DNA from: a virus
Strand: one strand, 5' to 3'
IMG/VR virus record: IMGVR_UViG_3300046704_000071
Span: 1 to 24,902 of that record
Length of the DNA: 24,902 bases
The notes under the pieces were generated by a model. It did not search any database and was not told where the DNA came from. It was given only the letters and a program-made list of their open reading frames with translations. Positions 12,768 to 24,765 of the stretch are shown piece after piece (the stretch's first letter is position 1; each line of letters begins with the position of its first letter). The position numbers were made by a program, and so were the translations under genes.

Positions 12768-12986
12768 ATGACCGTTAATAATCATTATGTTAAATCGGGA
12801 TACAGATCGGCAGAGGGTACCCCCCCTCGAAATATAGGTTCATTTCTCTATCCCCACCCACCCATTACCTGCTATAAATTGGGGAGGATTTCCAAGGGTT
12901 TTTTCTTTATTCTCGATCTAAGACAGGCTTTTACTGTCTTCTTTGGTTTTCAAAAAGTGGGGGGTCTGGGGGGAGCGCCATGTTAG
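12768..12986 (+). CDS. Doubtful frame overlapping integrase start (72 aa)
   Basis: AAGGAAAGG lies right before the ATG, but the predicted peptide is of odd composition (PPRNIGSFLYPHPPITC, then FFFILDLRQAFTVFFGF, then Gly-rich) and its codons run through the hairpin at 12920-12940 and the G-runs. It ends 7 bases inside the recombinase. Probably regulatory DNA rather than a gene. Confidence 0.22.
   Translation: MTVNNHYVKSGYRSAEGTPPRNIGSFLYPHPPITCYKLGRISKGFFFILDLRQAFTVFFGFQKVGGLGGAPC
12920..12949 (+). terminator. Possible terminator before integrase
   Basis: AAGACAG (12920-12926), a 7-base loop and CTGTCTT (12934-12940) form a perfect seven-pair stem followed by the T-rich CTTTGGTTTT. It is moderately terminator-like and could separate replication transcription from the recombinase gene. 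Confidence 0.45.
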
Positions 12987-13978
12987 AGCAATATCTTTCA
13001 GGGTTTGAACGGTATCTGAAGGTTCTGGAGGGCTTGAGCTCCGCGACGGCGAAAGCGTATGTTTCAAAGGTTGCTGAATTTGAAGCCTGGCTATTAAATA
13101 AAGAGCAATTTTGTGGTGAATTAACAGGCCTGCAGCGCGAGCATATAGAGCGCTATCTCGAATGGTGCTTCTACAGCCTGAGCAACTCAAATCAAACGAG
13201 GCATACGAAACTGACGGCATTGCGAAAATTCAACCGCTATCTCCGCTATGAAAAGGTTCCAATTGATGATTTTACACAAGACATCCCGAGGCCAAAGATT
13301 CCCAAGCCGCTTATGCAGGCGTTTCTCAAAGAAGAAACTCTACGGATGTTCGCGCAATGTGAGATAACCGCCGAAAAAGGTATCAGGGATATCTGCATAT
13401 TGATCTGCGCGGCGTTCGCCGGCTTGCGCATTAGTGAGATATACAGCTTGACCATTACGGATGTCCTGGATGACGGCAAAGATATCGATCTAAATATTCT
13501 CGACACGAAACATGATCGCAATAGAGTGGTGTATTTATGGAAGGCGCCGGCAATGTTCATACGACAGTATCTTTTAATTCGCATCGGACAGGGAGCCAAA
13601 GGCCGCGCCCCGTTATTTATATCTTACAAGCGAGGCGGCAAGGCCAAAGGGAACCGCCTGACTGCCGTCGCGATCGACAATTTGATAAAGGAACTTGCCG
13701 AAAAGGCTGGAGTGCAGCGTCATACCATTAAAAACCACATGTTTAGGGCCATGCATGCGAACGACCTGCAGAGCGTCAAGGGCTATACCATGCCCGCGAT
13801 TATGGAACGCCTCGGGTGGGCCGATCTGCAGACGGCCGGGCAGTACCTGGTACGCCGCGAACGGATCCACCGGATGTATAACTCACTACATGAATTCTGG
13901 ATCGACTTTCCTAAAATCTGGACGAAGGGAGCCGCAAATAATGCCGATGACGGGGGTGGTAACGATGCCAAAGAATGA
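12980..13978 (+). CDS. int: Tyrosine recombinase / phage integrase
   Basis: A 332-residue protein. The N-terminal SAM-like core-binding domain (about 1-95, SSATAKAYVSKVAEFEAWLL and TRHTKLTALRKFNRYLRY) precedes a catalytic domain with Arg150 (GLRISEI), a Lys-containing strand near 177, His253-x2-Arg256 (HMFR), Trp280 in place of the second His (LGWADL) and the nucleophile Tyr289 (GQYLV). These are the R-K-H-R-W-Y residues of tyrosine recombinases, which cut and rejoin att sites. Compact size fits XerC/D-like or simple phage integrases. GGGGGGAG precedes the ATG. Its position between origin and late activator, away from the lysogeny switch, is unusual, so dimer resolution is a possible alternative role. 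Confidence 0.9.
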   Translation: MLEQYLSGFERYLKVLEGLSSATAKAYVSKVAEFEAWLLNKEQFCGELTGLQREHIERYLEWCFYSLSNSNQTRHTKLTALRKFNRYLRYEKVPIDDFTQDIPRPKIPKPLMQAFLKEETLRMFAQCEITAEKGIRDICILICAAFAGLRISEIYSLTITDVLDDGKDIDLNILDTKHDRNRVVYLWKAPAMFIRQYLLIRIGQGAKGRAPLFISYKRGGKAKGNRLTAVAIDNLIKELAEKAGVQRHTIKNHMFRAMHANDLQSVKGYTMPAIMERLGWADLQTAGQYLVRRERIHRMYNSLHEFWIDFPKIWTKGAANNADDGGGNDAKE

Positions 13979-14303
13979 CAACAGGGAAGCACTTGAATCA
14001 TTTTTCGTTCGGCTGGAAAAGGAACACCCGTTACCCGTGGCGAAGAGAGTAGTTTATGCGTTTATTCAGGAATGTGGAAGCCTAAGGATAAGCGTGCCCG
14101 ATTTTAATGATATCTTCCGGATGCAACGTGACGCGAAAATCCGGGCCGCCTTCAATGGGGGGAACCATAAAGAATTGATGGCCCGCTGGGGGATGTCAGC
14201 TTCACAGATACGACGTATTGTGAAGCCGAGGGGGAGTGATCGCCGAACGCGAGAGAGACGGGCAACTGAACGCCTGACAGGCGACCGGAGAAAGGGCGGA
14301 TAG
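13965..14303 (+). CDS. Mor-family late transcription activator
   Basis: A 112-residue protein; Mu Mor is about 129. The middle VPDFNDIFRMQRDAKIRAAFNGGNHKELMARWGMSASQIRRIVK shows the Mor/C hallmarks: R-D-x-x-I, F-x-G-x-N-x-x-E-L and a helix-turn-helix at about 67-86. The N-terminus provides the dimerisation-type helices (VAKRVVYAFIQECG). The C-terminus is a basic Arg-rich tail (RRTRERRATERLTGDRR). I chose the ATG at 13965, with GGGGGTGG upstream; ATG 13941 is an alternative. Mor proteins bind a dyad upstream of promoters that lack a good -35. Two such promoters with a shared motif follow at 14345 and 19728. Confidence 0.8.
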   Translation: MPKNDNREALESFFVRLEKEHPLPVAKRVVYAFIQECGSLRISVPDFNDIFRMQRDAKIRAAFNGGNHKELMARWGMSASQIRRIVKPRGSDRRTRERRATERLTGDRRKGG

Positions 14304-14344: not shown

Positions 14345-14383
14345 CATGATCTGCCAGATCATGACGCTGTAATCTGGTATAAC
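14345..14383 (+). promoter_or_regulatory. Probable Mor-dependent promoter 1
   Basis: A perfect dyad, CATGATCT-GCC-AGATCATG (14345-14363), stands in place of a -35 box, followed by the extended -10 TGGTATAAC (14375-14383). TCTGCCAGA ends exactly 16 bases before TGG, identical in spacing to the copy at 19733-19766. The site begins 42 bases after the Mor-like gene, so the activator probably drives the downstream cassette and may sit next to its own target. Confidence 0.75.
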
Positions 14384-14601
14384 ATAATTATTAGCGTACT
14401 ATGTTTCCGGAGCTGGTTTTAAATTTTGGGAGGCTGTCATGAAAAAGGTATTATAAATACATTCGGATATATCGGCGACTCCCGCGTGAGCTCTGCCAAG
14501 CCCGAAATCTTCCATTCGTAGGATAGTGATCAACTCACTGAGCTCTGATCAACCCGCCGAAAAGGTTTCGGGTGTTTTTTATTTTAAGGAGGATCCGGCA
14601 G
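14384..14601 (+). other. Attenuator-like leader with MKKVL mini-ORF
   Basis: After promoter 1 a GGGAGG-preceded mini-ORF encodes MKKVL (14439-14456). CCCGAAA (14501-14507) can pair with TTTCGGG (14566-14572), which is also the 3' arm of the terminator hairpin at 14557-14571, so two foldings exclude each other. GAGCTCTG and TGATCAAC are each present twice between these elements. No larger gene is present. Confidence 0.5.
14557..14580 (+). terminator. Leader terminator before the DUF2292-like gene
   Basis: CCGAAA-AGG-TTTCGG (14557-14571) followed by GTGTTTTTT: a short stem with a T-tract. It would stop transcription before the DUF2292-like gene unless the upstream CCCGAAA competes. Confidence 0.6.
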
Positions 14602-14754
14602 ATGGTAGACAAGAAAGACCTCACGTGGAAGAGAAAGCTGGCAGCGTTGCTCTCAGAGCACCCCGATATTGGAGACAAGATGACCGGCCAGGTAACGATT
14701 CACATGAATGAAGGCGGCATATCAAAGGTTTACTCGAACAAAGAAGTGAAGTAA
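14602..14754 (+). CDS. Small DUF2292/YezD-like protein (50 aa)
   Basis: AAGGAGGATCC gives a near-ideal ribosome site, so the ATG at 14602 is secure despite the length. The C-terminal GQVTIHMNEGGISKVYSNKE is a beta-hairpin pattern like the DUF2292 (YezD) family of small proteins (G-x-V-T-I ... G-x-I-x-K-I). The N-terminus is basic and helical (KKDLTWKRKLAALLSEH). Function is unknown in the family. It stands alone between two terminators directly behind promoter 1, so it would be among the first and most abundant products of Mor activation. Confidence 0.75.
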   Translation: MVDKKDLTWKRKLAALLSEHPDIGDKMTGQVTIHMNEGGISKVYSNKEVK

Positions 14755-14768
14755 CGGTTAGCTGATAA

Positions 14769-14820
14769 CTCCCAGAGGGGAGCGCTATTAGACCCGGGCA
14801 GAAATGTCCGGGTTTTTTTT
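14769..14820 (+). terminator. Strong intrinsic terminator
   Basis: ACCCGGGCA-GAAA-TGTCCGGGT (14792-14813), nine pairs with one G-T, followed by eight Ts (14813-14820). A smaller hairpin CTCCC-AGAG-GGGAG (14769-14782) precedes it. Read-through or a separate promoter is needed to express the ParB/glycosyltransferase pair. Confidence 0.9.
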
Positions 14821-14830
14821 GGGGTAAACG

Positions 14831-15418
14831 ATGGAAATAACAATAATACCGATTACGGAGCTCAAGCCGGCGACTTATAACCCGCGGCGGATCGCGCGCG
14901 AGACCTTGCGGACCTTAAAGCGTAATATTGAGGAGTTCGGCTTCATTGATCCGATGATCGTCAATAAGGACCTGACCATAATTGGCGGGCACCAGCGCCA
15001 TAAAGCAGCCCTGGAACTGGGGATGAAAGAACTGCCCTGCGTCGTCCTCGATCTGTCCAAGTCTCGAGAGAGGGCACTAAACCTCGCGCTCAATAAAATA
15101 TCGGGCGAATGGGACAAGGTAAAGCTCGAATTACTCCTGAAAAGCATCGAGGATGTTGATCTTTCCTTCACGGGTTTCAATGAAGATGAACTCATTGATC
15201 TCATCAAAGACGAAAAGCCCGAGACTCCGCAGTACGACATCGCCCCCCGCCTGATGGAAAAGCACAATTACGTCGTCCTGTTCTTTGACAACGTCCTCGA
15301 CTTCCAGGTTGCCTGTGAAATATTCAGTGTGAAGATGATGCGGGAAGATACGCGGCAGCATGTCGGCCTGGGCAAGGCGATCGACGGCAAGGAGTACCTG
15401 AGGAAGATAGGCAAATGA
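14831..15418 (+). CDS. ParB-like N-terminal domain protein (DNA-modification associated)
   Basis: A 195-residue protein. Residues 1-75 form the ParB/Srx-like nuclease domain: ITELKPATYNPRRI, LKRNIEEFGFIDPMIVNKD and GGHQRHKAALELG at 52-64, then LDLSKSRERALNLALNKISGEWD. This version, with the ALNLALNK segment and no ParB helix-turn-helix, is usually beside phage DNA methylases or other DNA-modifying enzymes; here the neighbour is a glycosyltransferase, coupled by a 4-base ATGA overlap. The C-terminal 60 residues are a small alpha/beta extension (YVVLFFDNVLDFQVACEIF). GGGGTAA is a usable ribosome site. Predicted role: DNA-targeting or nuclease partner of modification. Confidence 0.88.
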   Translation: MEITIIPITELKPATYNPRRIARETLRTLKRNIEEFGFIDPMIVNKDLTIIGGHQRHKAALELGMKELPCVVLDLSKSRERALNLALNKISGEWDKVKLELLLKSIEDVDLSFTGFNEDELIDLIKDEKPETPQYDIAPRLMEKHNYVVLFFDNVLDFQVACEIFSVKMMREDTRQHVGLGKAIDGKEYLRKIGK

Positions 15419-16134
15419 TCTGCGTTATCCCTTCTGCCGGCAGGCCGGATACGATGACCACGACGAAGATCATCCCCACTGCCTGCGTCTGTGTGCCCGA
15501 GTCACAAGTGGCTGAATACCGCAAATATCATGACAGGATCGTAGGGCATCCGGAAGATGTCTACGGCATGGGCCAGAAGCGGCAGTGGATCCTCGACAAC
15601 TTTGAGGATGAGATTATCTTTATGGCCGATGACGATATCTCTTTTCTCTGCTATATGGGTGATGGCGACGAAGGCTCGGGCGGGCACCGGATCCGCATCA
15701 AGGACCCCGGCCACATATGGGAAGTGGTGATGAACACGGCCGCGATCGCCCGCTCGCTCGGTACAAACCTCTTTGGCTTTAACGAGATCCCTGACTTGCG
15801 CAAGTTCAATTATATCGATCCGTTCAGCACCAGGGACCGCATCAACGGCTTTGCCATGGGGATCATCAAAGACGGTCAGAGATTCGATCCGCGCCTGGTG
15901 GTGAAACAGGATTATGACTTCTTCATGATGTCTCTATATTGGAAGCGCTTCATCTGGCGCGATGACCGGTATTCCTTTGTCGCAAAACACTATACGAACA
16001 AGGGCGGGCTCTGCGCCCACCGGTCCACATCAAAAGAGATCGAGTGCATCAAGATTTTACAAGAGAAATTCGGCTCCCAATACGTCGGCACGGTCAAAGA
16101 TAAACCCTGGAAGGTCGTAATAAAAAAACTCTAA
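15415..16134 (+). CDS. GT-A glycosyltransferase, TET-associated (TAGT) type
   Basis: A 239-residue cytosolic protein. It opens with an ICVIPSAGRPDT strand-loop and a CVCVPESQVAEYRKYH segment, then the family-typical GMGQKRQWILDN, and FMADDDISF with the metal-binding D-x-D at about 72-74. Later RINGFAMGI, QDYDFFMMSLYWKR and GGLCAHR fit the second half of the fold. I assign it to the TET-associated glycosyltransferase-like group, known mainly from phages that glycosylate oxidised or hydroxymethylated bases. No TET/JBP oxygenase or hydroxymethyl-base synthase is in this window. It overlaps the ParB-like gene by 4 bases. Glycosylating another substrate, such as protein, remains possible. Confidence 0.75.
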   Translation: MICVIPSAGRPDTMTTTKIIPTACVCVPESQVAEYRKYHDRIVGHPEDVYGMGQKRQWILDNFEDEIIFMADDDISFLCYMGDGDEGSGGHRIRIKDPGHIWEVVMNTAAIARSLGTNLFGFNEIPDLRKFNYIDPFSTRDRINGFAMGIIKDGQRFDPRLVVKQDYDFFMMSLYWKRFIWRDDRYSFVAKHYTNKGGLCAHRSTSKEIECIKILQEKFGSQYVGTVKDKPWKVVIKKL

Positions 16135-16238
16135 GGCTTGCGGGCAGTCCTTTTGCATCCCAAGATTAAACGCTCCCATAACAAAGACATCAGTTTTCGG
16201 GCAGTATTCTTGCTTTTCCCCTTCAAAATTCCCCTAAA

Positions 16239-16263
16239 AAAAACGCTTTACAATCGCGTTTTT
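16239..16263 (+). terminator. Terminator-like hairpin after glycosyltransferase
   Basis: AAAAACGC (16239-16246), loop TTTACAATC, GCGTTTTT (16256-16263): an eight-pair arm ending in Ts and preceded by As, so it could act in both directions. Only three pairs are GC, so termination may be weak. Confidence 0.45.
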
Positions 16264-16275
16264 CAGTGGGACAAT
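16247..16275 (+). promoter_or_regulatory. Possible sigma-70 promoter
   Basis: TTTACA (16247-16252), 17-base spacer, GACAAT (16270-16275), about 43 bases before the gene at 16318. It overlaps the preceding hairpin. It does not share the Mor-type motif, so it might express the clamp/ParB group independently of Mor. Confidence 0.45.
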
Positions 16276-16317
16276 AAGCACAAGGCAGGGTTGCAAAAAC
16301 AAAATCAGGAGGAACGC

Positions 16318-16530
16318 ATGAAAAAGCAAATCGCGCATCTCACCTTCAAGGGCAAGCCGCTCTGCGAGCACGGTTATCACCACTGGCTGATCTGGAATAC
16401 GAATTGCGAGCAGCCATCAATCAGGGACGCAAGAGAGGAAGCCGCACGCTTAAACAGAAAAGACAGGAGCAAGCATCGGCGCATCAAGGTTGTCGTCGGT
16501 CACTGCCCTATCAAGTCCTACTATAGATGA
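16318..16530 (+). CDS. Hypothetical basic protein (70 aa)
   Basis: AGGAGG precedes the ATG at 16318, which I prefer to longer in-frame starts. The product is basic with LCEHGYHHWLIWNTNCEQPS and GHCPIKSYYR; the Cys and His residues could bind zinc. The helix REEAARLNRKDRSKHRRIK suggests nucleic-acid contact. No family recognised. It overlaps the next frame by 4 bases. Confidence 0.65.
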   Translation: MKKQIAHLTFKGKPLCEHGYHHWLIWNTNCEQPSIRDAREEAARLNRKDRSKHRRIKVVVGHCPIKSYYR

Positions 16531-16718
16531 GCAAAGTGCAGCAAGCGGAACGTTATGAGTATGGCAACTTGAACAGTGGCATCCGCTATATAAATAAGAA
16601 ACTGTTGGAGTTGCGAGGAGAGACGTACCGGTACGTCTCTAAGGGAATGAGGCGCGTGACCTTAAGTCATGCGCCCCATCCGGAGCTCCTCACTGTCAGG
16701 AAAGGAGGCTGCCTATAG
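16527..16718 (+). CDS. Hypothetical protein crossing a palindrome (63 aa)
   Basis: Supported mainly by ATGA coupling to the previous gene. The product is basic (YEYGNLNSGIRYINKKLLELRG). From about residue 31 the codons pass through a perfect 22-bp palindrome (16619-16640) and a second hairpin (16651-16675), so the 3' half may be constrained as DNA or RNA rather than protein. No family recognised. Confidence 0.45.
   Translation: MSKVQQAERYEYGNLNSGIRYINKKLLELRGETYRYVSKGMRRVTLSHAPHPELLTVRKGGCL
16619..16640. repeat. Perfect 22-bp palindrome
   Basis: Arms AGAGACGTACC and GGTACGTCTCT with no loop. Even symmetry suits a dimeric DNA-binding protein; as RNA it would be a strong hairpin, but no T-run follows. 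It lies 155 bases before the clamp gene and 1.6 kb before the ParB gene, making it a candidate parS-like site. Confidence 0.85.
16651..16675. repeat. Second inverted repeat near clamp gene
   Basis: GGCGCGTGAC - CTTAA - GTCATGCGCC: ten pairs with one G-T, ten bases after the 22-bp palindrome. Possibly part of the same regulatory site, or an mRNA structure in the clamp leader. Confidence 0.7.
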
Positions 16719-16794
16719 GAATAATAGCAGAAAGCACCGGAGCTGGCAAGCGTCGTCAGTATTAACCCATAACTCAAAACTAAAGGAGATTGTC

Positions 16795-18243
16795 ATGAAA
16801 GATACGAAGAAAAAGGCAGCAAAGCCCGCCACAAAGAAGGCAGTCGTGAAGTTCGCTCCGGTCAAGGCGCCGGCCGCCAAAGAGATCAAGAAAGCAGCAG
16901 CGGTACCGCCTGCAAAAGAGACCAAGGCAGCGGCGGTCCTGAATGTAACCTTTTCGAGGCAGGAACTGTTGAGCTCGCTTAAAGTCGCTGCAGGCTGCGT
17001 CGAGAAGAAAGGTACGCTCCCGATCCTCAGCCATATCCTGTTCGATATCGCAAGCGGAAAGTGCAGGCTTGCGGCAACGAATCTCGAAATGCGCTGGACC
17101 CGCACGATAGACTGCAAGGGTGACGCCGTGAAGCGCTGCATCCCCGCAGAACTGCTGCTTAAAGAGGTCTCCGCGATAGAGGACATGAACATCGATATGT
17201 CTTTCGCGGAACATACCGTCAAGGTCCACAAGCGTTGCGAGATCTACACGCTTTCAGCAGATGAGTTCCCTGCCGGCATGGACTTCAAGGGGGTCACCCT
17301 GGACGTCGACCGCATCCCTACCGCTCTGAAAAGGGTGATCAGGGCCGCAGGCGAATCAGACACGCGCTATGTGCTTAACGGCGTGTTTCTGGATTTGAAC
17401 GCCGGCACGATGGTTGCCACTGACGGCAACAGGCTGCACCTGGACAATATCACTGTCCGCGGTGAGGGCATACCGGCAGCCGGCAGGATCCTGCCGCGCA
17501 AGGCAGCTGAGCTGATCATGAAATATCCGGTAAAGAACAATGCAGGGCAGCTGCGCGATATCAAGCGGGGGGTCAGTCCTGCAAAGGGCAAGCATACGTT
17601 GACGGTCTACGGGCAGAAGGTAGAAGCCGGATACGAGGTCAACAAGACCGGCTACATGACCATTGAGTGGAACGGGCCTGTGAGTTCGTCAGGGTACCTG
17701 TCTGAGAACGAGTACAAGGGCAAGGACCTGATAGCGAAACACGATATGGCCGATTACCTGCAGGGCAGGGCAGAGGCCAAATATCGCGCCCTGTATGAAA
17801 CCCAGACCATGACCGTGGGAGACAGGCATATCAGCCTCCCGATAGCGGAAGGCGTGCTCACGGTGAAGTGCATTGAGGGGCAGTATCCCGATTACAAGAA
17901 AGTCGTGCCCACGAAACTGCCGATAAAGTTGCGCTTCCAGAGCAAGGACTTATTTCAGGTCCTTGGCGGGGCGGTACCGGTAGACCAGAAACTCAAGCTC
18001 ACGATTAACGGGAACCTGAGGATACAGACCGAGAACGCCGGCGTCGGGTCGTACAAGTGGCAGATAGCCTGCTCCTCGATCGGAAAGGCCAAGGGCGAAG
18101 TCGGGTTCATCGTCAATTCCACTTACCTGCTCGACGCCATCAGGGCATATGCAGCGGAGTCGGCTGTTGAGATCGAGATGTCAGAGGGCCTGTCTCCTAT
18201 CCTCATTAACCAGAAGGCAGTAGTTATGCCGATGAGAGCATAA
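16795..18243 (+). CDS. dnaN: DNA polymerase III beta-like sliding clamp with basic tail
   Basis: A 482-residue clamp; host DnaN is about 370. The ATG at 16795 has AAAGGAG upstream. Residues 1-48 are a Lys/Ala/Pro tail (KKKAAKPATKKAVVK) like histone-H1-type tails. The clamp begins at VTFSRQELLSSLKVAAG with TLPILSHILF and ATNLEMRW (domain 1), LKRVIRAAGESDTRYVLNGVFLD and ATDGNRLHL (domain 2), and ends AVVMPMRA, equivalent to the DnaN C-terminus. Between about 232 and 360 domain 2 is enlarged by some 65-75 residues before CIEGQYPDY. Clamps encircle DNA and tether polymerase and repair proteins. First gene of a clamp-ParB-RarA-like trio. Confidence 0.9.
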   Translation: MKDTKKKAAKPATKKAVVKFAPVKAPAAKEIKKAAAVPPAKETKAAAVLNVTFSRQELLSSLKVAAGCVEKKGTLPILSHILFDIASGKCRLAATNLEMRWTRTIDCKGDAVKRCIPAELLLKEVSAIEDMNIDMSFAEHTVKVHKRCEIYTLSADEFPAGMDFKGVTLDVDRIPTALKRVIRAAGESDTRYVLNGVFLDLNAGTMVATDGNRLHLDNITVRGEGIPAAGRILPRKAAELIMKYPVKNNAGQLRDIKRGVSPAKGKHTLTVYGQKVEAGYEVNKTGYMTIEWNGPVSSSGYLSENEYKGKDLIAKHDMADYLQGRAEAKYRALYETQTMTVGDRHISLPIAEGVLTVKCIEGQYPDYKKVVPTKLPIKLRFQSKDLFQVLGGAVPVDQKLKLTINGNLRIQTENAGVGSYKWQIACSSIGKAKGEVGFIVNSTYLLDAIRAYAAESAVEIEMSEGLSPILINQKAVVMPMRA

Positions 18244-18256
18244 CGGAAGGTTGACC

Positions 18257-19123
18257 ATGAAAAAGCAAGTCATAGAATTGCAGCTTAACAAGGTTTTCCC
18301 AAACCCTGATCAGCCGAGAAAGCATTTTGATCAGGACCGGCTGGATGAGCTCGCCATGAGCATCAGAGAGTATGGCGTGCAGGAGCCGATCAAAGTAGTG
18401 CCCCGAGAGGGGCGCTACATGATCGTGATGGGTGAACGGCGGTGGCGGGCTTCCGAGCTCGCCGGCAAGTCGACCATACCATCTATCATAGAAAACCTTA
18501 ACGCCCATCAGGTTGAAGAGCTGGCGTTGCTCGAAAACATCCAGCGGGAGGACCTGAACATCATCGAACAGGGCAAGGCCTATCAACGCCTTATAGACAG
18601 AGGCTGGACAGTCGAGGACATGGCCCGAAAGTTTGGCTATAAGAAAACGGGGCCCATCTACGACCGGTTGAGTCTCCTCAGCCTGGCAGCGGACTATCAG
18701 GACATGGTCATTAAAGGCAGCCTGACGCCCGCCCAGGCCTATGAGATGAGCCGCTTGCCTCAGGCACAGCAGGATATTGTTTTTGCGAAGATACGCTCAG
18801 GCGAGCTCAACACGCAAAACAAACTCTATGCCTTTGTAACGGCCCTGATAGCGATCGACAGTCAAGAAAGCATCTTCGCCCTCACGCCCTTATCCTCACA
18901 AGAGAGCGAGTCGATCATGGCCTTCTCGGGACTCATGGGCAGTATCGAGAAGTTTCTAAAACAGATTCATCAGGAAGACCGCCTGAGGCATCTCGAAAAG
19001 GCGGTGCTGCATACCGACATAAGCACCGAGCGGCTTGACCTGATCATAGGGCAGCTGCAGAAGATACGCCGCACTATTTTAGTGGGCGAGGGTGTGCAGA
19101 AGGCACAGGAGATAGCTGCATAA
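18257..19123 (+). CDS. parB: ParB/Spo0J-family protein
   Basis: A 288-residue protein with the full ParB order: LQLNKVFPNPDQPRKHFD, SIREYGVQEPIKVVP, GERRWRAS at 59-66 (CTP/phosphate-binding box), LLENIQREDLNIIEQGKAY at 91-109 and a helix-turn-helix at about 117-140 (TVEDMARKFGYKKTGPIYDRLSL). A helical C-terminal region follows. ParB proteins load at parS and slide as CTP-bound clamps; others act as transcription factors. No ParA gene is in the window and I saw no canonical parS, but a 22-bp palindrome lies upstream. The ATG at 18257 is chosen over the in-frame TTG at 18251. It lies 13 bases after the clamp gene. Confidence 0.92.
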   Translation: MKKQVIELQLNKVFPNPDQPRKHFDQDRLDELAMSIREYGVQEPIKVVPREGRYMIVMGERRWRASELAGKSTIPSIIENLNAHQVEELALLENIQREDLNIIEQGKAYQRLIDRGWTVEDMARKFGYKKTGPIYDRLSLLSLAADYQDMVIKGSLTPAQAYEMSRLPQAQQDIVFAKIRSGELNTQNKLYAFVTALIAIDSQESIFALTPLSSQESESIMAFSGLMGSIEKFLKQIHQEDRLRHLEKAVLHTDISTERLDLIIGQLQKIRRTILVGEGVQKAQEIAA

Positions 19124-19132
19124 GGAGGAACG

Positions 19133-19711
19133 GTGACACTCTTCAAATTAATGACGAAAAACGGTTACAGATTTTCAGAGGCAGCCAGCGCGCTGCAGAA
19201 GACGATCCGGCGCGGCCTCGAGGAACAGGCCATGTATTGGGCCATCGAGCTGGAGGACGGCTTTCATGAATACCTCTGGCGGCGGCTGCAGGTGATCTCC
19301 GTCGAGGATATCGGCATAGCGGACCCGCACGTTGTCCTCTATGTGGCCGAGATGCGGAAGCTGTATCTGGAACTCCGCAAGGAATACGACAAGGCGCCGG
19401 AGAAAAAGTCGCGGTCATTCCGCATGGTCCTGGCAAACGCGATACTCGCCATGTGCCGGGCAAGTAAGAGCCGCATAGGCGATGAATTCCAGATCGTCAT
19501 TTACGGCCGGCGCGAGAGAGGGCTGCACCTGGACGTTCCGGATTTCGCGCTCGACATGCATACGGCAAAGGGCCGCAGCATGGGGCGCGGGCCTGAACAC
19601 TTCTGGACCGAGGGAGTGCGTCTGTTCAACATGAAGAAGCTTAAAAACCCTTATACGGATGAGGCCGTGCGCTACCGCACCGGCCGCGAAGAGGAGGCCA
19701 CCGACGAATAG
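19133..19711 (+). CDS. Stand-alone RarA/MgsA C-terminal-like domain
   Basis: GTG start at 19133 with AAGGAGG well placed. A 192-residue protein: ASALQKTIRRGLEEQAMYWAIEL, YLWRRLQVISVEDIGIADPHVV and RMVLANAILAMCRASKSR match the C-terminal half of RarA/MgsA (host motif EDIGLADP), the helical region that forms tetramers and contacts partners. The AAA+ ATPase half is absent. In the host the full-length protein rescues stalled forks and interacts with SSB. A phage copy lacking the ATPase could bind or poison the host protein, or serve the adjacent clamp. Final residues (NPYTDEAVRYRTGREEE) are acidic. Confidence 0.8.
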   Translation: MTLFKLMTKNGYRFSEAASALQKTIRRGLEEQAMYWAIELEDGFHEYLWRRLQVISVEDIGIADPHVVLYVAEMRKLYLELRKEYDKAPEKKSRSFRMVLANAILAMCRASKSRIGDEFQIVIYGRRERGLHLDVPDFALDMHTAKGRSMGRGPEHFWTEGVRLFNMKKLKNPYTDEAVRYRTGREEEATDE

Positions 19712-19727
19712 ACAGACGAAATAGTTT

Positions 19728-19766
19728 CATACTCTGCCAGAAGGCGGAGCGAAAATTTGGTATAAC
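19728..19766 (+). promoter_or_regulatory. Probable Mor-dependent promoter 2 (packaging genes)
   Basis: CATACTCTGCCAGA (19728-19741), 16 bases, then extended -10 TGGTATAAC (19758-19766). It matches promoter 1 at CAT, TCTGCCAGA, AAT and TGGTATAACA with the same spacing. Only the left half of the dyad is conserved. It lies 37 bases before the small terminase start. Confidence 0.75.
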
Positions 19767-19799
19767 AAGCCCAAAGGTCGTAAGACTGGAGGGCTTGTT
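19764..19799 (+). repeat. Inverted repeat at the terminase start
   Basis: AACAAGCCC (19764-19772) and GGGCTTGTT (19791-19799) are exact nine-base complements, with GGTC-GTAA-GACT inside. The left arm covers the -10 box, and the GGAGG ribosome site lies at the right arm, so this could be an operator or a translational switch if transcription starts early enough. Confidence 0.7.
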
Positions 19800-19802
19800 G
19801 TT

Positions 19803-20693
19803 ATGGACAAAAAACGGGAAGAAAAAATTGCAGCACTCAACGAAAAGCTCCGCTATATAAAAATAAGCCTCAGCAACGCCGCCAAGAAACTCAACAATGG
19901 AGACATAGTTCAAGCCTCTATCATAGAGGACCTTCATACGAAAAAAGAGGCCATTCAGGCGCAAATTAAGGCACTAATCGCAGGGGACGCAACCCCTAAT
20001 ACCGGCCAGCCTGCAAAGGACGAAGAAAAGGCCTGTATAGGCATTCCAGAAAGACTCCGTATTCCCCGCTGCTATACCATGTCGCCTGAGGCTATAGACC
20101 AGCGCAAGAAAGCGGCCAAGAGCCCGGCCAAGTCCGAGGCCATGAAAGGGAACAGAAACAGCTGGAAGACCGGGAAATACGCCCAGGGCTTTGTTCAGAA
20201 ATTCGTAAAGCCCTGCCTGTCTACCTGCCCGCATTATCCGTGCTCGCTTGTCAATGATGGCGATACAGAGCCAGGCGGCGTCTGCCTCGACAAGGCGCAG
20301 ATCATAGACACCTTCAGCGCGATCATGAAGTCCCTCAGTGAGAAGAGCAATCCTGAGCGTCACAAGGACCTGCAGGAGATCATGGCGCTCAAGGTCGGCA
20401 GCGCGATGCAGATTGCCGATCTGCTGATGGAATCTATCCTGCGTGACGGCCCGATCGTGAAGAGCGAGGTATGGGACAAGGACGGCAATGTAGTTGGGCA
20501 CAAGATAGTCAGTCACCCTTCACTGTTCATGCTGCCCAAGATGCTGGCCGATCTTAACCTCTCGCTCGGAGATCTGAATGTCACGCCCAGGGCGCAGGCA
20601 AAGGTTGACGATGATGAGAAGGCAAATAAAACCCTGGCTACCATCCTCGGCGGGGTTGCCTCCAAGCTGCAGGATAACGGAGGCAAGACTTAA
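19803..20693 (+). CDS. Small terminase subunit-like protein
   Basis: A 296-residue protein. Residues 1-60 are a Lys/Glu coiled-coil-like segment. The middle carries KGNRNSWKTGKYA at about 115-127, the GN-x-N-x2-K-x-G-x-Y motif of many small terminase DNA-binding proteins, and a Cys cluster (C138, C142, C147, C161; CLSTCPHYPC) that may bind zinc. The rest is helical oligomerisation-type sequence, ending TLATILGGVASKLQ. Placement directly before the large terminase, with a one-base TAATG overlap, supports the role of recognising phage DNA for packaging. Length exceeds typical TerS (about 150-200). Confidence 0.75.
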   Translation: MDKKREEKIAALNEKLRYIKISLSNAAKKLNNGDIVQASIIEDLHTKKEAIQAQIKALIAGDATPNTGQPAKDEEKACIGIPERLRIPRCYTMSPEAIDQRKKAAKSPAKSEAMKGNRNSWKTGKYAQGFVQKFVKPCLSTCPHYPCSLVNDGDTEPGGVCLDKAQIIDTFSAIMKSLSEKSNPERHKDLQEIMALKVGSAMQIADLLMESILRDGPIVKSEVWDKDGNVVGHKIVSHPSLFMLPKMLADLNLSLGDLNVTPRAQAKVDDDEKANKTLATILGGVASKLQDNGGKT

Positions 20694-22582
20694 TGCCCGT
20701 GCTCGATACGGTTCAGCCTGTCAACCTCGCTGATCTCGGCAAGGACATAGTTATCCCCCGTTCCTTTTTCGAGGCCTGGCTTGAGCGTTTTGACTGGACA
20801 TGGCACCAGATCGCAAGGGGCGAATTCCCGGAGCCGTACGAATCCCTTGACGAATTCCAGCTCGCCTGCATCATGTCCGATCCTGTTTTGTGGTGCCAGG
20901 CCTTTCTGCGCGAACCCGAGGATCCTGATCATCAGGACCCGTATAACTTTTTCGGGTACCAGCAAGGCGGCATCAGGTATCGCAGCAATAAAGTGTACGA
21001 CTGCGGCTCTGAGACAGGGAAGACCAGAGATATCGTGGCGGACAATCTCTTTTATGCGTACACCTTGCCAAACGGCTCGGGTCTGGTCGGCGCTCCGCAG
21101 CAGACGCATCTCGATGAAATCATCGAGGCCATGACCGATCAGTTTTCATGGAATGACGACCTTCTAGGTTCACTGAAGCGTCACAAGAAACATCCGCATC
21201 ATGCCATGTATTTTACTAACGGCTTCAAAATAGACTTCCGCCCAGCCGGCCATGACGGTGAAGCCTTCCGTGGTGTCCACGTTCGCACCTTCGCAAAACT
21301 CGACGAAGCCGCGAAAATGAAAAATCCCAAACAGTGGTCAGAGTTCTGGCGCGCAATGAAGCCCGGCTGTGTTGCCGCTATTTATTCGGTCACTGACGGT
21401 GACCGGTCCTGTGATTTCTTCAAACTCAAGGAAAGGGCCAAGAGCACCAGCGTTATTAATATGGCGGCGGAAGAAAAGCCCGCAGCAGCTGAACAGCAAG
21501 AGACTGAGTTTAAACATATGCCCCGGCATTTGCGGACCATGAAGTTCAAACACTTCTGCTGGCCCAAGACCATGATGCCTGCTCCTTACTGGTCGGAAGA
21601 GCGTAGGCAATTCTATATCGAACAATACGGCGGGGAAGACAGCCCTGGCTACAAACATAACGTTCTGGCCGAAGACGGCGACCCCGAATACAGCGTATTC
21701 CCATGGGAGCAGCTCCGGCATTGCGTGAAAGAGATTATTGAATATCGCTGCCTCAAGGTGCTGGTCGAAAGGGCACGGAATGAGGTCATAGTCAGCGGCT
21801 ACAAGATCGAGATGGTACCGGGCGATAGCGGGCCGGTCCCGCGCAAGATCACGCTCGCCAATTCCATTTTGCGCATGACCGGGTTTTTCGATTACTCGAT
21901 AAGGCCCGATGGCTCCATGAACGACAGTGAATTCCGCAAACTGATAAAGGGCTTTTTCGTCGCCGTCCCCGGGCTGAAGCGCGGTGGGGCTGACTTCGGT
22001 TTTTCCGGTGATCCCACTGAAATACTCATAAAGAACATTATCGGCAAGCGCAAGCGTACCATAGCGAGACTCAACCTTAAACACGTCACCTACGACCAGC
22101 AATGCCAGGCCCTCGATGCGCTCGATGACATTTACGGCCCGCAGGAGTCGATGAGCTGGGGCACTGACTACGGCAATGCCGGCAGCGCGGTCGCTCACGA
22201 CCTTGCGGGGCTGCCTCAGTATAAGCACAAGCATTATGACGACCGCCTGCACGGGTTCCAGTTCGAGAGCACGACTGACAACATAGATGAAGATGGCACG
22301 CCGATTATCGACAGCAAAGACGGCAAGCCTGTAAAGATCACCCTCAAGGAGTTGTCTACGGACCACATGACAAAGTTTATCCAGCGGCTTGATGTCGAAT
22401 ACCCGCCGGATCCCGACCTGCTCACCTATTACCCGAACCATACAGTCAGCACTGCCGGCAAGCATCGCACCTATAAAAAACAGGACGATCACCTTATAGA
22501 TGCTGACCGCGCCGAAACCCTGGCCGGGCTTCTCGGCTGCGCTGTTGAAGACTATTTCGCCTGCGGAGGACATACGAGATGA
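20693..22582 (+). CDS. terL: Large terminase subunit (packaging ATPase-nuclease)
   Basis: A 629-residue protein. The ATPase domain has a deviant Walker A CGSETGKT at 104-111 (Cys where the first Gly would be), and the strand FAKLDEAAK with Asp204-Glu205 as Walker B and catalytic Glu. LVGAPQQTHLDEI and GEAFRGVHVRTF are typical neighbours. The C-terminal RNase H-like nuclease begins at GADFGFSGDPTEIL (Asp434), then WGTDYGNAGSAV, and acidic DHMTKFIQRLD later. The enzyme pumps DNA into the prohead and cuts it. GGAGG lies eight bases before the ATG. The C-terminus overlaps the portal gene by 4 bases. Confidence 0.9.
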   Translation: MPVLDTVQPVNLADLGKDIVIPRSFFEAWLERFDWTWHQIARGEFPEPYESLDEFQLACIMSDPVLWCQAFLREPEDPDHQDPYNFFGYQQGGIRYRSNKVYDCGSETGKTRDIVADNLFYAYTLPNGSGLVGAPQQTHLDEIIEAMTDQFSWNDDLLGSLKRHKKHPHHAMYFTNGFKIDFRPAGHDGEAFRGVHVRTFAKLDEAAKMKNPKQWSEFWRAMKPGCVAAIYSVTDGDRSCDFFKLKERAKSTSVINMAAEEKPAAAEQQETEFKHMPRHLRTMKFKHFCWPKTMMPAPYWSEERRQFYIEQYGGEDSPGYKHNVLAEDGDPEYSVFPWEQLRHCVKEIIEYRCLKVLVERARNEVIVSGYKIEMVPGDSGPVPRKITLANSILRMTGFFDYSIRPDGSMNDSEFRKLIKGFFVAVPGLKRGGADFGFSGDPTEILIKNIIGKRKRTIARLNLKHVTYDQQCQALDALDDIYGPQESMSWGTDYGNAGSAVAHDLAGLPQYKHKHYDDRLHGFQFESTTDNIDEDGTPIIDSKDGKPVKITLKELSTDHMTKFIQRLDVEYPPDPDLLTYYPNHTVSTAGKHRTYKKQDDHLIDADRAETLAGLLGCAVEDYFACGGHTR

Positions 22583-24765
22583 AAATATTGGGGTACGAGA
22601 TCAGAAAGGCCCAGGGCGTGACATCAGAGGCGCAGATCAGGGAGAACAATCCGCAGGGGCCGTATACAAAATACTTTCAGGACTATGTGTTCAGAAAGGT
22701 CTCGGGAGAGTTCTATGAATTTCTGAGAGAGGCCATCCCGATAATTGACTCGGGGATCCGCAGGCTCATTTCTTTAAATGGCACCATCAAGATCATCGGT
22801 GACAAGCCTGAGGTAGTCGCGGCACTCGAAGACTTCTGCCTTAATGTGCCTGTCAACGATCAGCAGAAAGGCATGCAGGCCTTTATTGAGAATTTCGCCA
22901 ATGAAACCTTCGAACAGGGCTTCAGCATAAGCGAATTTACGGCCACGCCCGACATGAAGGACATCGCCGGCCTGCGAGTTGCGGACAGTAAGAACATCAC
23001 CTTTTGCAGGGACGCTAAGACAGGCAGGGCCGAGCCCTGGTACAGGTATCCGGGCAATCAGCCGAGACTGACTAACTCAACGCCGGGCACCTTGATAGAG
23101 CGGATCCTGAATGCGCGGTATGTCCAGACAAGGAGCGTCAACGGGATAGATGAGGTCAGGCTTAATCCGTCCAATATACTCTATAACTCCATCAACAATG
23201 AAAATTCCGACCCTGGCGGCGTTTCGGTCATGCGCTCGATGGAGTTCGTCTCCCAGATCCTCGCTACTTTACAGAACAGCATCAAGAGTGTGGGAGAGCG
23301 TTTCGGCGATCCCTCTTATCATGTGCATTACAAGGCCAGCAAGATCGGCGCCGAGGAGACCCTTGAGACCCGCCGCCTGGTCATGTATAACGAATTCCAG
23401 AAGGCAATAACCGCCAAACGCCAGGGATCGAGCGCCGATTTCGTGACGGCCGGCAGCCAGGATTCCGACGTAGTGGTAAAGGTAATCGGCCATGACGGCC
23501 AGATACTCGAGTACGAGATCCCGCTGCGGCATGTGCTTGAACAGATCGTCAGCAAACTTAACCTGCCGGCGTGGATGCTCGGCATTTACTGGAGCACGAC
23601 GGAGCGCATGGCTACCCTCGAGGTTGAGGCCGCGCTGCAGGATGCCAAGATACGCCAGCTTTCCATGCTGCACGAGCTGATAAGGCTTTTCTCCGTCTAT
23701 CTCTCGCTCAGGGGCTTCAAGTGGAACACCGTTACCACGTCAGTTGATCGGCCGGGTGACTGGGGCATAGTGTTCGAGACGCCTAACCTGCGTGATCTGG
23801 TCGCTCAGGCGCAGGCCCGCTTCCTCAATGCTCAGGCTGATATGATGGGTGCTGCGGGCAACACCGCGCCGGGCACTCAGACGCAGGTAACCGTTGGCGC
23901 CGCAACGGTCGAGATACAGGGCATGAAGTTTCCCCTGGTCACAAGGACGGGACTAAAAACATATTCCAGCGCTTGCGGATGCCCGGACCATCAAAGGAAA
24001 GAACTGCGCCGGCCGAAGCCCTGGCCTGAGCTCGATGATCTTGAAACAAAATATCTGAACGAACTGATGTATGACTGGAACGAGCTCGGGGGCAGGGTCA
24101 CTTCGATCCTTGGGTTCACGGCAGAGGGCAAGGCTGCGGGCGCGGAAGTACAGAAAGACGACAACCAGGTTTTTTCGCTTTCCGGTGATCAGATAGACCA
24201 GATAAAGAGGGCGCTCGAGCAGTACCTGCAAAACTACAAACCGTCCGAGGCTGACTCCTCGATCCGTTATTTCTACGGCCAGGCCCTCAGCCTCGGTTAT
24301 CTGCATGCTTCATACGAGGTCGGCAGTCAGCAGTCTCTGCTTAACATCCTGAAAAACTCCGAGATCTATAACAGCCTTTGCAAAAACGGGTTTGACCTGG
24401 TCAAGAACAACGCAACGCGCAGGATCATCGATCAGATAATTCCAGAGATGCAGAGCTACTCGCTCTCCGGCTCAAATCCTAAAGAGGTGGCTGGCCGGCT
24501 CGAAAAACTGTTTGGCGATCAGAACGCTAACTGGGACCGTCTCGCACGTTCGGAAATGAGCATGGCGGCCGAGGACGCAAAGCTTGCTGAATGGAAAGAG
24601 CGGGGCATAAAGACCACGGAATTCACCCCCGCGCCTGATGCGTGTCCCATCTGCATGGCGCTGGCCGGCGAATATCCCATTGGGACCGCGCCCGTGCCGG
24701 TGAGAGATACGCACCCAGAGTGCAGGTGCAGCAACCGACCGGGGAAAGGCGAGGTATCGGGATGA
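22579..24765 (+). CDS. Mu gp29-like portal fused to MuF head protein
   Basis: A 728-residue fusion. The N-terminal about 430 residues are DUF935/Mu gp29-type portal: YTKYFQDYVFRKVSGEFYEFL, FEQGFSISEFT, ILYNSINNENSDPGGVSVMR, PLRHVLEQIVSKLNLPAWMLG and TLEVEAALQDAKIRQ. After a linker with CGCPDHQRKELRR the C-terminal third is MuF (gp30-like): NATRRIIDQIIPEMQS, LFGDQNANWDRLARSEMSMAAEDAKLAEWKERG and the final ACPICMALAGEYPIG ... HPECRCS. In Mu these are separate proteins. The portal forms the DNA entry ring; MuF is a minor head morphogenesis protein. ATGA overlaps on both sides. No sign of a frameshift. Confidence 0.9.
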   Translation: MKILGYEIRKAQGVTSEAQIRENNPQGPYTKYFQDYVFRKVSGEFYEFLREAIPIIDSGIRRLISLNGTIKIIGDKPEVVAALEDFCLNVPVNDQQKGMQAFIENFANETFEQGFSISEFTATPDMKDIAGLRVADSKNITFCRDAKTGRAEPWYRYPGNQPRLTNSTPGTLIERILNARYVQTRSVNGIDEVRLNPSNILYNSINNENSDPGGVSVMRSMEFVSQILATLQNSIKSVGERFGDPSYHVHYKASKIGAEETLETRRLVMYNEFQKAITAKRQGSSADFVTAGSQDSDVVVKVIGHDGQILEYEIPLRHVLEQIVSKLNLPAWMLGIYWSTTERMATLEVEAALQDAKIRQLSMLHELIRLFSVYLSLRGFKWNTVTTSVDRPGDWGIVFETPNLRDLVAQAQARFLNAQADMMGAAGNTAPGTQTQVTVGAATVEIQGMKFPLVTRTGLKTYSSACGCPDHQRKELRRPKPWPELDDLETKYLNELMYDWNELGGRVTSILGFTAEGKAAGAEVQKDDNQVFSLSGDQIDQIKRALEQYLQNYKPSEADSSIRYFYGQALSLGYLHASYEVGSQQSLLNILKNSEIYNSLCKNGFDLVKNNATRRIIDQIIPEMQSYSLSGSNPKEVAGRLEKLFGDQNANWDRLARSEMSMAAEDAKLAEWKERGIKTTEFTPAPDACPICMALAGEYPIGTAPVPVRDTHPECRCSNRPGKGEVSG

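Follow-up and report, generated by a model that had tools for sequence, protein, structure and literature searches.

The window analysed here is an entire IMG/VR record, a 24.9-kb fragment of a viral genome, and all the genes and sites described in this paragraph lie on its plus strand. A gene for a Mor/C-family activator of 112 aa (mor, 13965–14303) overlaps a tyrosine recombinase gene (12980–13978; PF00589, E 9.4e-19). Behind mor lies a candidate activator site with an extended -10 element (P1, 14335–14384), followed by a cargo block of five genes (14831–19711): a ParB-like gene (14831), a glycosyltransferase-like gene (15415), a sliding-clamp homologue (16795), a second ParB-like gene (18257) and an MgsA-C-like gene (19133). 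A second candidate site of the same type (P2, 19718–19767) has as its first gene the small terminase gene terS (19803–20693), whose homologues occupied the same place in all relatives with 33–43% identity. Next come the large terminase gene terL (20693–22582; PHROG terminase large subunit, E 2.8e-14) and a portal or minor head protein gene (22579–24765), which matched the PHROG portal family with E 4e-51 and also that of minor head proteins.

The initial annotation had assigned the 112-aa protein to the Mor family. This was supported by the match to PF08765 (E 9e-12; 45.4 bits against a curated cut-off of 24.9) and by a match to the PHROG late transcriptional activator. The AlphaFold model of the protein had a pLDDT of 85.5, and when it was compared by Foldseek, ranks 1–7 were all Mu C or Mor chains with probabilities of 0.97–1.0, at modest single-chain TM-scores of 0.36–0.45. 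The Mor-family profile also matched 1rr7 with an E-value of 2.4e-11.

Two matching copies of a promoter-like motif had been reported at P1 and P2. The pattern TCTGCCAGA-N16-TGGTATAACA was indeed found, exactly, at 14350–14384 and 19733–19767, on the same strand and in non-coding DNA in both cases. The upstream CAT (14345 in P1, 19728 in P2), the AAT ahead of the -10 and the extended -10 itself, TGGTATAAC, were all present as described; TGGTATAAC occupies 14375–14383 in P1 and 19758–19766 in P2, and TCTGCCAGA of P2 occupies 19733–19741. Neither site has a TTGACA-like hexamer at -35, again in agreement with the initial annotation, the letters of this region being CAGATC in P1 (14355–14360) and CAGAAG in P2 (19738–19743). 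P1 follows the Mor-family gene, with 41 bases from the stop codon to CAT, and P2 lies just upstream of the terminase genes as stated, with 35 bases between its end and the terS ORF (19803). P1 also holds a feature that had escaped notice, a perfect 19-bp palindrome CATGATCTGCCAGATCATG, composed as CATGATCTG-C-CAGATCATG, at 14345–14363.

Two copies by themselves may mislead, and the pair could be a duplicate that exists in one phage by chance. When up to three mismatches were allowed in TCTGCCAGA-N16-TGGTATAACA, the window held two matches only, P1 and P2, and shuffled sequences held 0.01 on average, with two matches in none of 100 shuffles. These shuffles, together with the leave-one-out ranking and the recurrence in 13 phages given below, refute a chance origin, which we consider to have a negligible probability.

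Since the window is only a fragment, the wider scan was done on relatives, which were gathered by a TerL profile and comprised 67 loci. For each locus, the region before terS was compared with the remainder of the locus to find pairs of sites. One locus, L012, was a near-identical longer contig of the same phage (TerL 100%) that runs past the end of the window. It carried P2 again plus a third site, P3, with the sequence TTTGCCAGA-N16-TGCTAACAAT, 5.2 kb downstream; P2 and P3 have ATAGTTTCAnnnTnTGCCAGAAGGCGG and the -10 in common. Near-identical pairs in the same orientation within one genome were found in 13 independent phages of the clade with TerL identity of at least 55% (L012/window, G004, G005, G009, G010, L037, G014, G015, G016, G017, G018, G020 and L051). 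The two sites of a pair were identical at 28–38 of 38 positions, compared with 24–30 in controls made by reversal and by reverse complementation. Pairs at the low end (28–30) fall within the control range by identity, and the case for them is their position and spacing.

P2 preceded terS, followed by terL and portal, in every case. P3 was located 4.6–6.9 kb downstream of P2 across the clade, always before an orthologous scaffold-like gene (about 370 aa, phrog_16951), a cement protein gene (PF09956) and the capsid gene. Core and TGnTA were a constant distance apart in the 13 phages, and P2 of G010 has TGCCA in place of TGnTA. In all, 14 phages besides that of the window had a counterpart of P2 directly ahead of terS. 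The best-scoring pair of G014 was P1 and P2, and its P3 was located by the per-phage pattern. G008 has a clear P2 and, at the P3 position, an operator with a poorer -10, and in L013 P2 alone was seen. G005 and L013 carry a variant, TGACATAAACTGACA, of a different arrangement and without a recognisable TGCCAG core.

The letters of the sites were phage-specific, for example AAAGTGACACCCTCTGCCAGCC in G004 and TTCCCATCTCTTGCCAGAACG in G020. When the viral collection was scanned for the exact pattern, the matches outside the same phage had neither the flanking motif nor the gene context, and several of them were evidently one repeated coding sequence. The exact string being phage-specific, the family could be reached through protein-led searches only. 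When four near-complete records were scanned with per-phage patterns at a tolerance of about 30% mismatch (G004, 42.0 kb; G005, 50.0 kb; G015, 43.5 kb; G018, 41.9 kb), each gave exactly two sites and no extras. The motif is conserved in relatives in its position, orientation and spacing, and no surplus of random matches was seen in these four records; both outcomes favour the initial annotation. The two predicted targets counted there are present, but the pair is incomplete because P3 lies before the capsid genes. The conserved core of the predicted regulon is P2 and P3.

More distant relatives (TerL 31–38%) often had the Mor gene, and their site pairs were only at control level. A possible exception is a different repeated core, TCGGACGAC, shared by the distant phages L057 (9170 and 17804) and L058 (2036 and 12017), with one copy shortly before terL and the other 8–9 kb downstream. 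These copies are possibly operators of a diverged Mor.

A weight matrix was trained without the window phage and scored on 49,714 positions of both strands. In this leave-one-phage-out model P1 ranked first (45.3) and P2 second (29.9), and the third-ranked position (17.4) was the opposite strand of the P1 palindrome. P2 and P3 likewise took ranks 1 and 2 in most of the remaining phages; the sites of G014 and G015 were found in part and those of G005 were missed. When the -10 was removed and the operator columns were used alone, both window sites were still recovered, each then followed by TGGTATAAC, and both sites were recovered in about half of the other phages, with TGnTA following.

The operator reads approximately gTGnCATnnTCTG-C-CAGAncatGtcc, a dyad that spans positions -54 to -24 or so and includes a -35 region with no -35 hexamer. 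Its axis lies near -36, where 0.56 of the positions were complementary against a mean of 0.25 (sd 0.06) at other axes; the numbering assumes that +1 is 15 bases past TG, a predicted start site. A reading of the operator as direct repeats (TKnCA every 10 bp) was rejected, as the dyad about -36 describes it best and the apparent repeat arises because the core is palindromic. The -10 is weak because the last T of the canonical -10 is not conserved, which counts against the promoter reading. In G014, G015 and G020, terS begins at the predicted +1 itself, its ATG standing precisely 15 bases past the TG box. This agreement supports the assignment of the -10, and it suggests that the terS mRNAs of these three phages are leaderless. 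The positions of these starts are L041:5132 (G014), L044:7502 (G015) and L089:6422 (G020).

Because P1 is near the recombinase gene and P2 near terS, the sites might also be arm-type or crossover sites of the tyrosine recombinase, or packaging signals. P3, however, lies 4.6–6.9 kb past P2 and far from both genes, neither kind of site calls for a TGnTA box at a fixed distance, and the link between operator and recombinase is slight once Mor is taken into account (r 0.09). We consider this explanation very unlikely. Even less probable is a role of the palindromes as parS-like centromeres of the two ParB-like proteins (genes at 14831 and 18257). The perfect 19-bp palindrome of P1 does stand just ahead of a ParB-like gene, and two such genes lie between P1 and P2, but only two of ten site-bearing records had a ParB_N match and several records of 42–56 kb had none. 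The fixed TGnTA spacing, the single orientation and the placement before terS and capsid genes suit promoters instead, and the ParB/parS reading was rejected as strongly disfavoured, site-bearing genomes being mostly without ParB_N.

Among the phages compared, only the window phage and G014 have a further site upstream, roughly 5 kb ahead of P2, and P1 is an accessory site. The reading of the sites as a late regulon is supported for P2 and P3, which precede morphogenesis genes, but less so for P1. P1 precedes ParB-like and other cargo genes that are not typical late genes, so that its late role is the least secure point of the reading. In both the window and G014, the short stretch after P1 ends in a terminator-like hairpin. 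In the window this hairpin (14557–14571, plus strand) resembles an intrinsic terminator about 190 bases past P1, with a weak consensus and a score little above shuffles. A 50-aa ORF with a good ribosome site and no family match (14602–14754, plus strand) is flanked by this hairpin and another at 14790–14815. The stretch after P1 was also considered as a small RNA, and this was rejected when its 201-nt fold was no better than shuffles (z -0.25); an Rfam search of the window gave no match. In G018 and L051, P2 itself is directly behind mor. We infer that the ancestral order was mor-site-terS and that the cargo was inserted together with a duplicated site.

Several observations concern the cargo genes themselves. 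In G014 (L041:150–350), P1 is followed by a short glycine- and lysine-rich ORF and then the terminator-like hairpin, beyond which lie a PAPS-reductase-like gene and a ParB-like gene. In the window, the first ParB-like gene overlaps the next gene by 4 bases (14831–16134 for the two), and this glycosyltransferase-like gene (15415) matches beta-glucosyl-HMC-alpha-glucosyltransferase (phrog_842), possibly pointing to a role in DNA modification. The sliding-clamp homologue (16795–18243) has all three Pfam domains of the DNA polymerase III clamp and an N-terminal extension rich in lysine and alanine.

The recombinase next to mor has the catalytic residues R, K, HxxR, H/W and Y, and these boxes were conserved in 12 phages. 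It overlaps or abuts mor, directly upstream, in about two dozen loci, and the pair was kept even at TerL identities of 31–38%. The near-complete relatives carried two or three tyrosine recombinases, several times with one at the record edge. The initial annotation had spoken of a phage with a tyrosine integrase; a tyrosine recombinase is confirmed, but because relatives carry two or three of them, the prophage integrase is probably another copy than the one linked to mor. A serine recombinase was sought and none was found. The Mu transposase family PF02914 had no match in the window record, which is a fragment, or in eight relatives, and Mu as a positive control gave E 2.4e-139. By eye, a frame on the minus strand at 719–1111 resembles a Cro/CI-type helix-turn-helix repressor, which fits a temperate phage. 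It is conceivable, if rather doubtful, that this is a large temperate clade in which the late activator is tied, through an overlapping operon, to a second, catalytically intact tyrosine recombinase other than the prophage integrase, and that DNA rearrangement or multimer resolution by this enzyme may couple to the onset of late genes.

The sites could be real conserved promoters that serve another activator or repressor, such as a host factor or a different phage regulator, with Mor an incidental neighbour. Co-variation of the operator with the recognition-helix segment of the Mor helix-turn-helix alone was not significant (r 0.32, p 0.066), which leaves some room for such a regulator. Nearly all relatives, however, have a Mor-family gene ahead of their terminase genes; none was seen in G014 and G020, both fragments. 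Divergence of the operator also tracks that of Mor (Mantel r 0.59, p 0.0005) more closely than that of TerL or the recombinase: the correlation persisted given TerL (r 0.46, p 0.013), and the recombinase added nothing given Mor. In addition, phage-specific site letters do not suit a host factor, and Mu sets Mor/C targets directly after the activator gene. Another regulator is therefore unlikely, and the link between Mor and the sites is supported by gene conservation, fold, co-divergence of operator and Mor, and the layout in Mu.

The motif, with its spacing and its dyad, was established at the sequence level, as were the placement of the sites, the order of the genes, the conservation and the Mor fold predicted for the activator. 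On this basis, P1, P2 and P3 are very probably activator-dependent, sigma70-type promoters of morphogenesis genes under the Mor/C-family protein of 13965–14303. We infer the binding, activation, use of the host polymerase, timing and read-through. The Mor/C-family protein would bind the dyad (about -54 to -24), replacing the missing -35 contact, and would position the RNA polymerase of the host at the extended -10, TGnTA. In PDB entries 9l0x (Mu C) and 9l0y (Mor), both with RNA polymerase, there are apparently four activator chains each, so that a site of this extent, longer than one dimer footprint, would not be odd. P2 would transcribe terS-terL-portal, and P3 the scaffold-like, cement and capsid genes and presumably, by read-through, the tail genes. 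P1 would be an extra copy at the apparent ancestral place of P2, right behind mor, now driving a short leader and, through read-through, the inserted cargo genes.

Mor/C proteins occur in many phages. To our knowledge, their targets outside Mu have been largely guesswork, and a limited literature search brought up papers on Mu only, with no mapped Mor/C regulon from a phage unlike Mu. In 13 phages, whose hosts are mostly uncultured, the full predicted circuit can now be read in the sequence: an activator and, ahead of terS and of the capsid genes, sites specific to each phage. It would give a handle on late promoters of phages that cannot be grown, and the naturally matched Mor variants and operators could serve for decoding DNA recognition. 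The nearest named phage by TerL (35%), Microcystis phage MACPNOA1 (KY697807), resembles the window in a XerD-like gene that overlaps a small gene directly ahead of terS and terL, but its small gene lacks a Pfam Mor match and no site pair above control was found.

The closest parallels are in Mu. The predicted structure of the 112-aa protein has the Mu Mor fold, and P1 has the same place relative to mor as Pm, which immediately follows mor, and Plys, which immediately follows C. At Pm, the Mor dyad overlaps a -35 region without a hexamer, as in P1 and P2, but it is centred at -43.5 and Pm has no extended -10 (PMC4287176), whereas the dyad axis here is near -36 and an extended -10 is present. 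Only one activator was found in the part seen, unlike the cascade from Mor to C in Mu. The Mu late regulon (C; Plys, PI, PP and Pmom) likewise has one small Mor/C-family activator and promoters without a -35 box, and these too have non-consensus -10 elements (PMC4461284). It differs in that its site letters are unrelated, the motif model giving no match at Pm or Plys when Mu was scanned, and in that an extended -10 is present here and no separate lysis or tail promoter was found; moreover, the activator gene here overlaps a tyrosine recombinase gene and there is no Mu transposase. In layout, Plys comes immediately behind the C gene, with the lysis, terS, terL and portal genes downstream of it, comparable to P2, and a second promoter, PI, stands before the head genes, so that P2 and P3 are arranged like Plys and PI (PMC4461284). 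We conclude that the predicted circuit is genuine and conserved, a late regulon of the Mu type in a clade apart from Mu. The same layout recurs in no fewer than a dozen phages that are only distantly related, which suggests that the late switch of Mu is used by a large group of non-transposing phages, and that late control of the Mu type is not tied to transposition.
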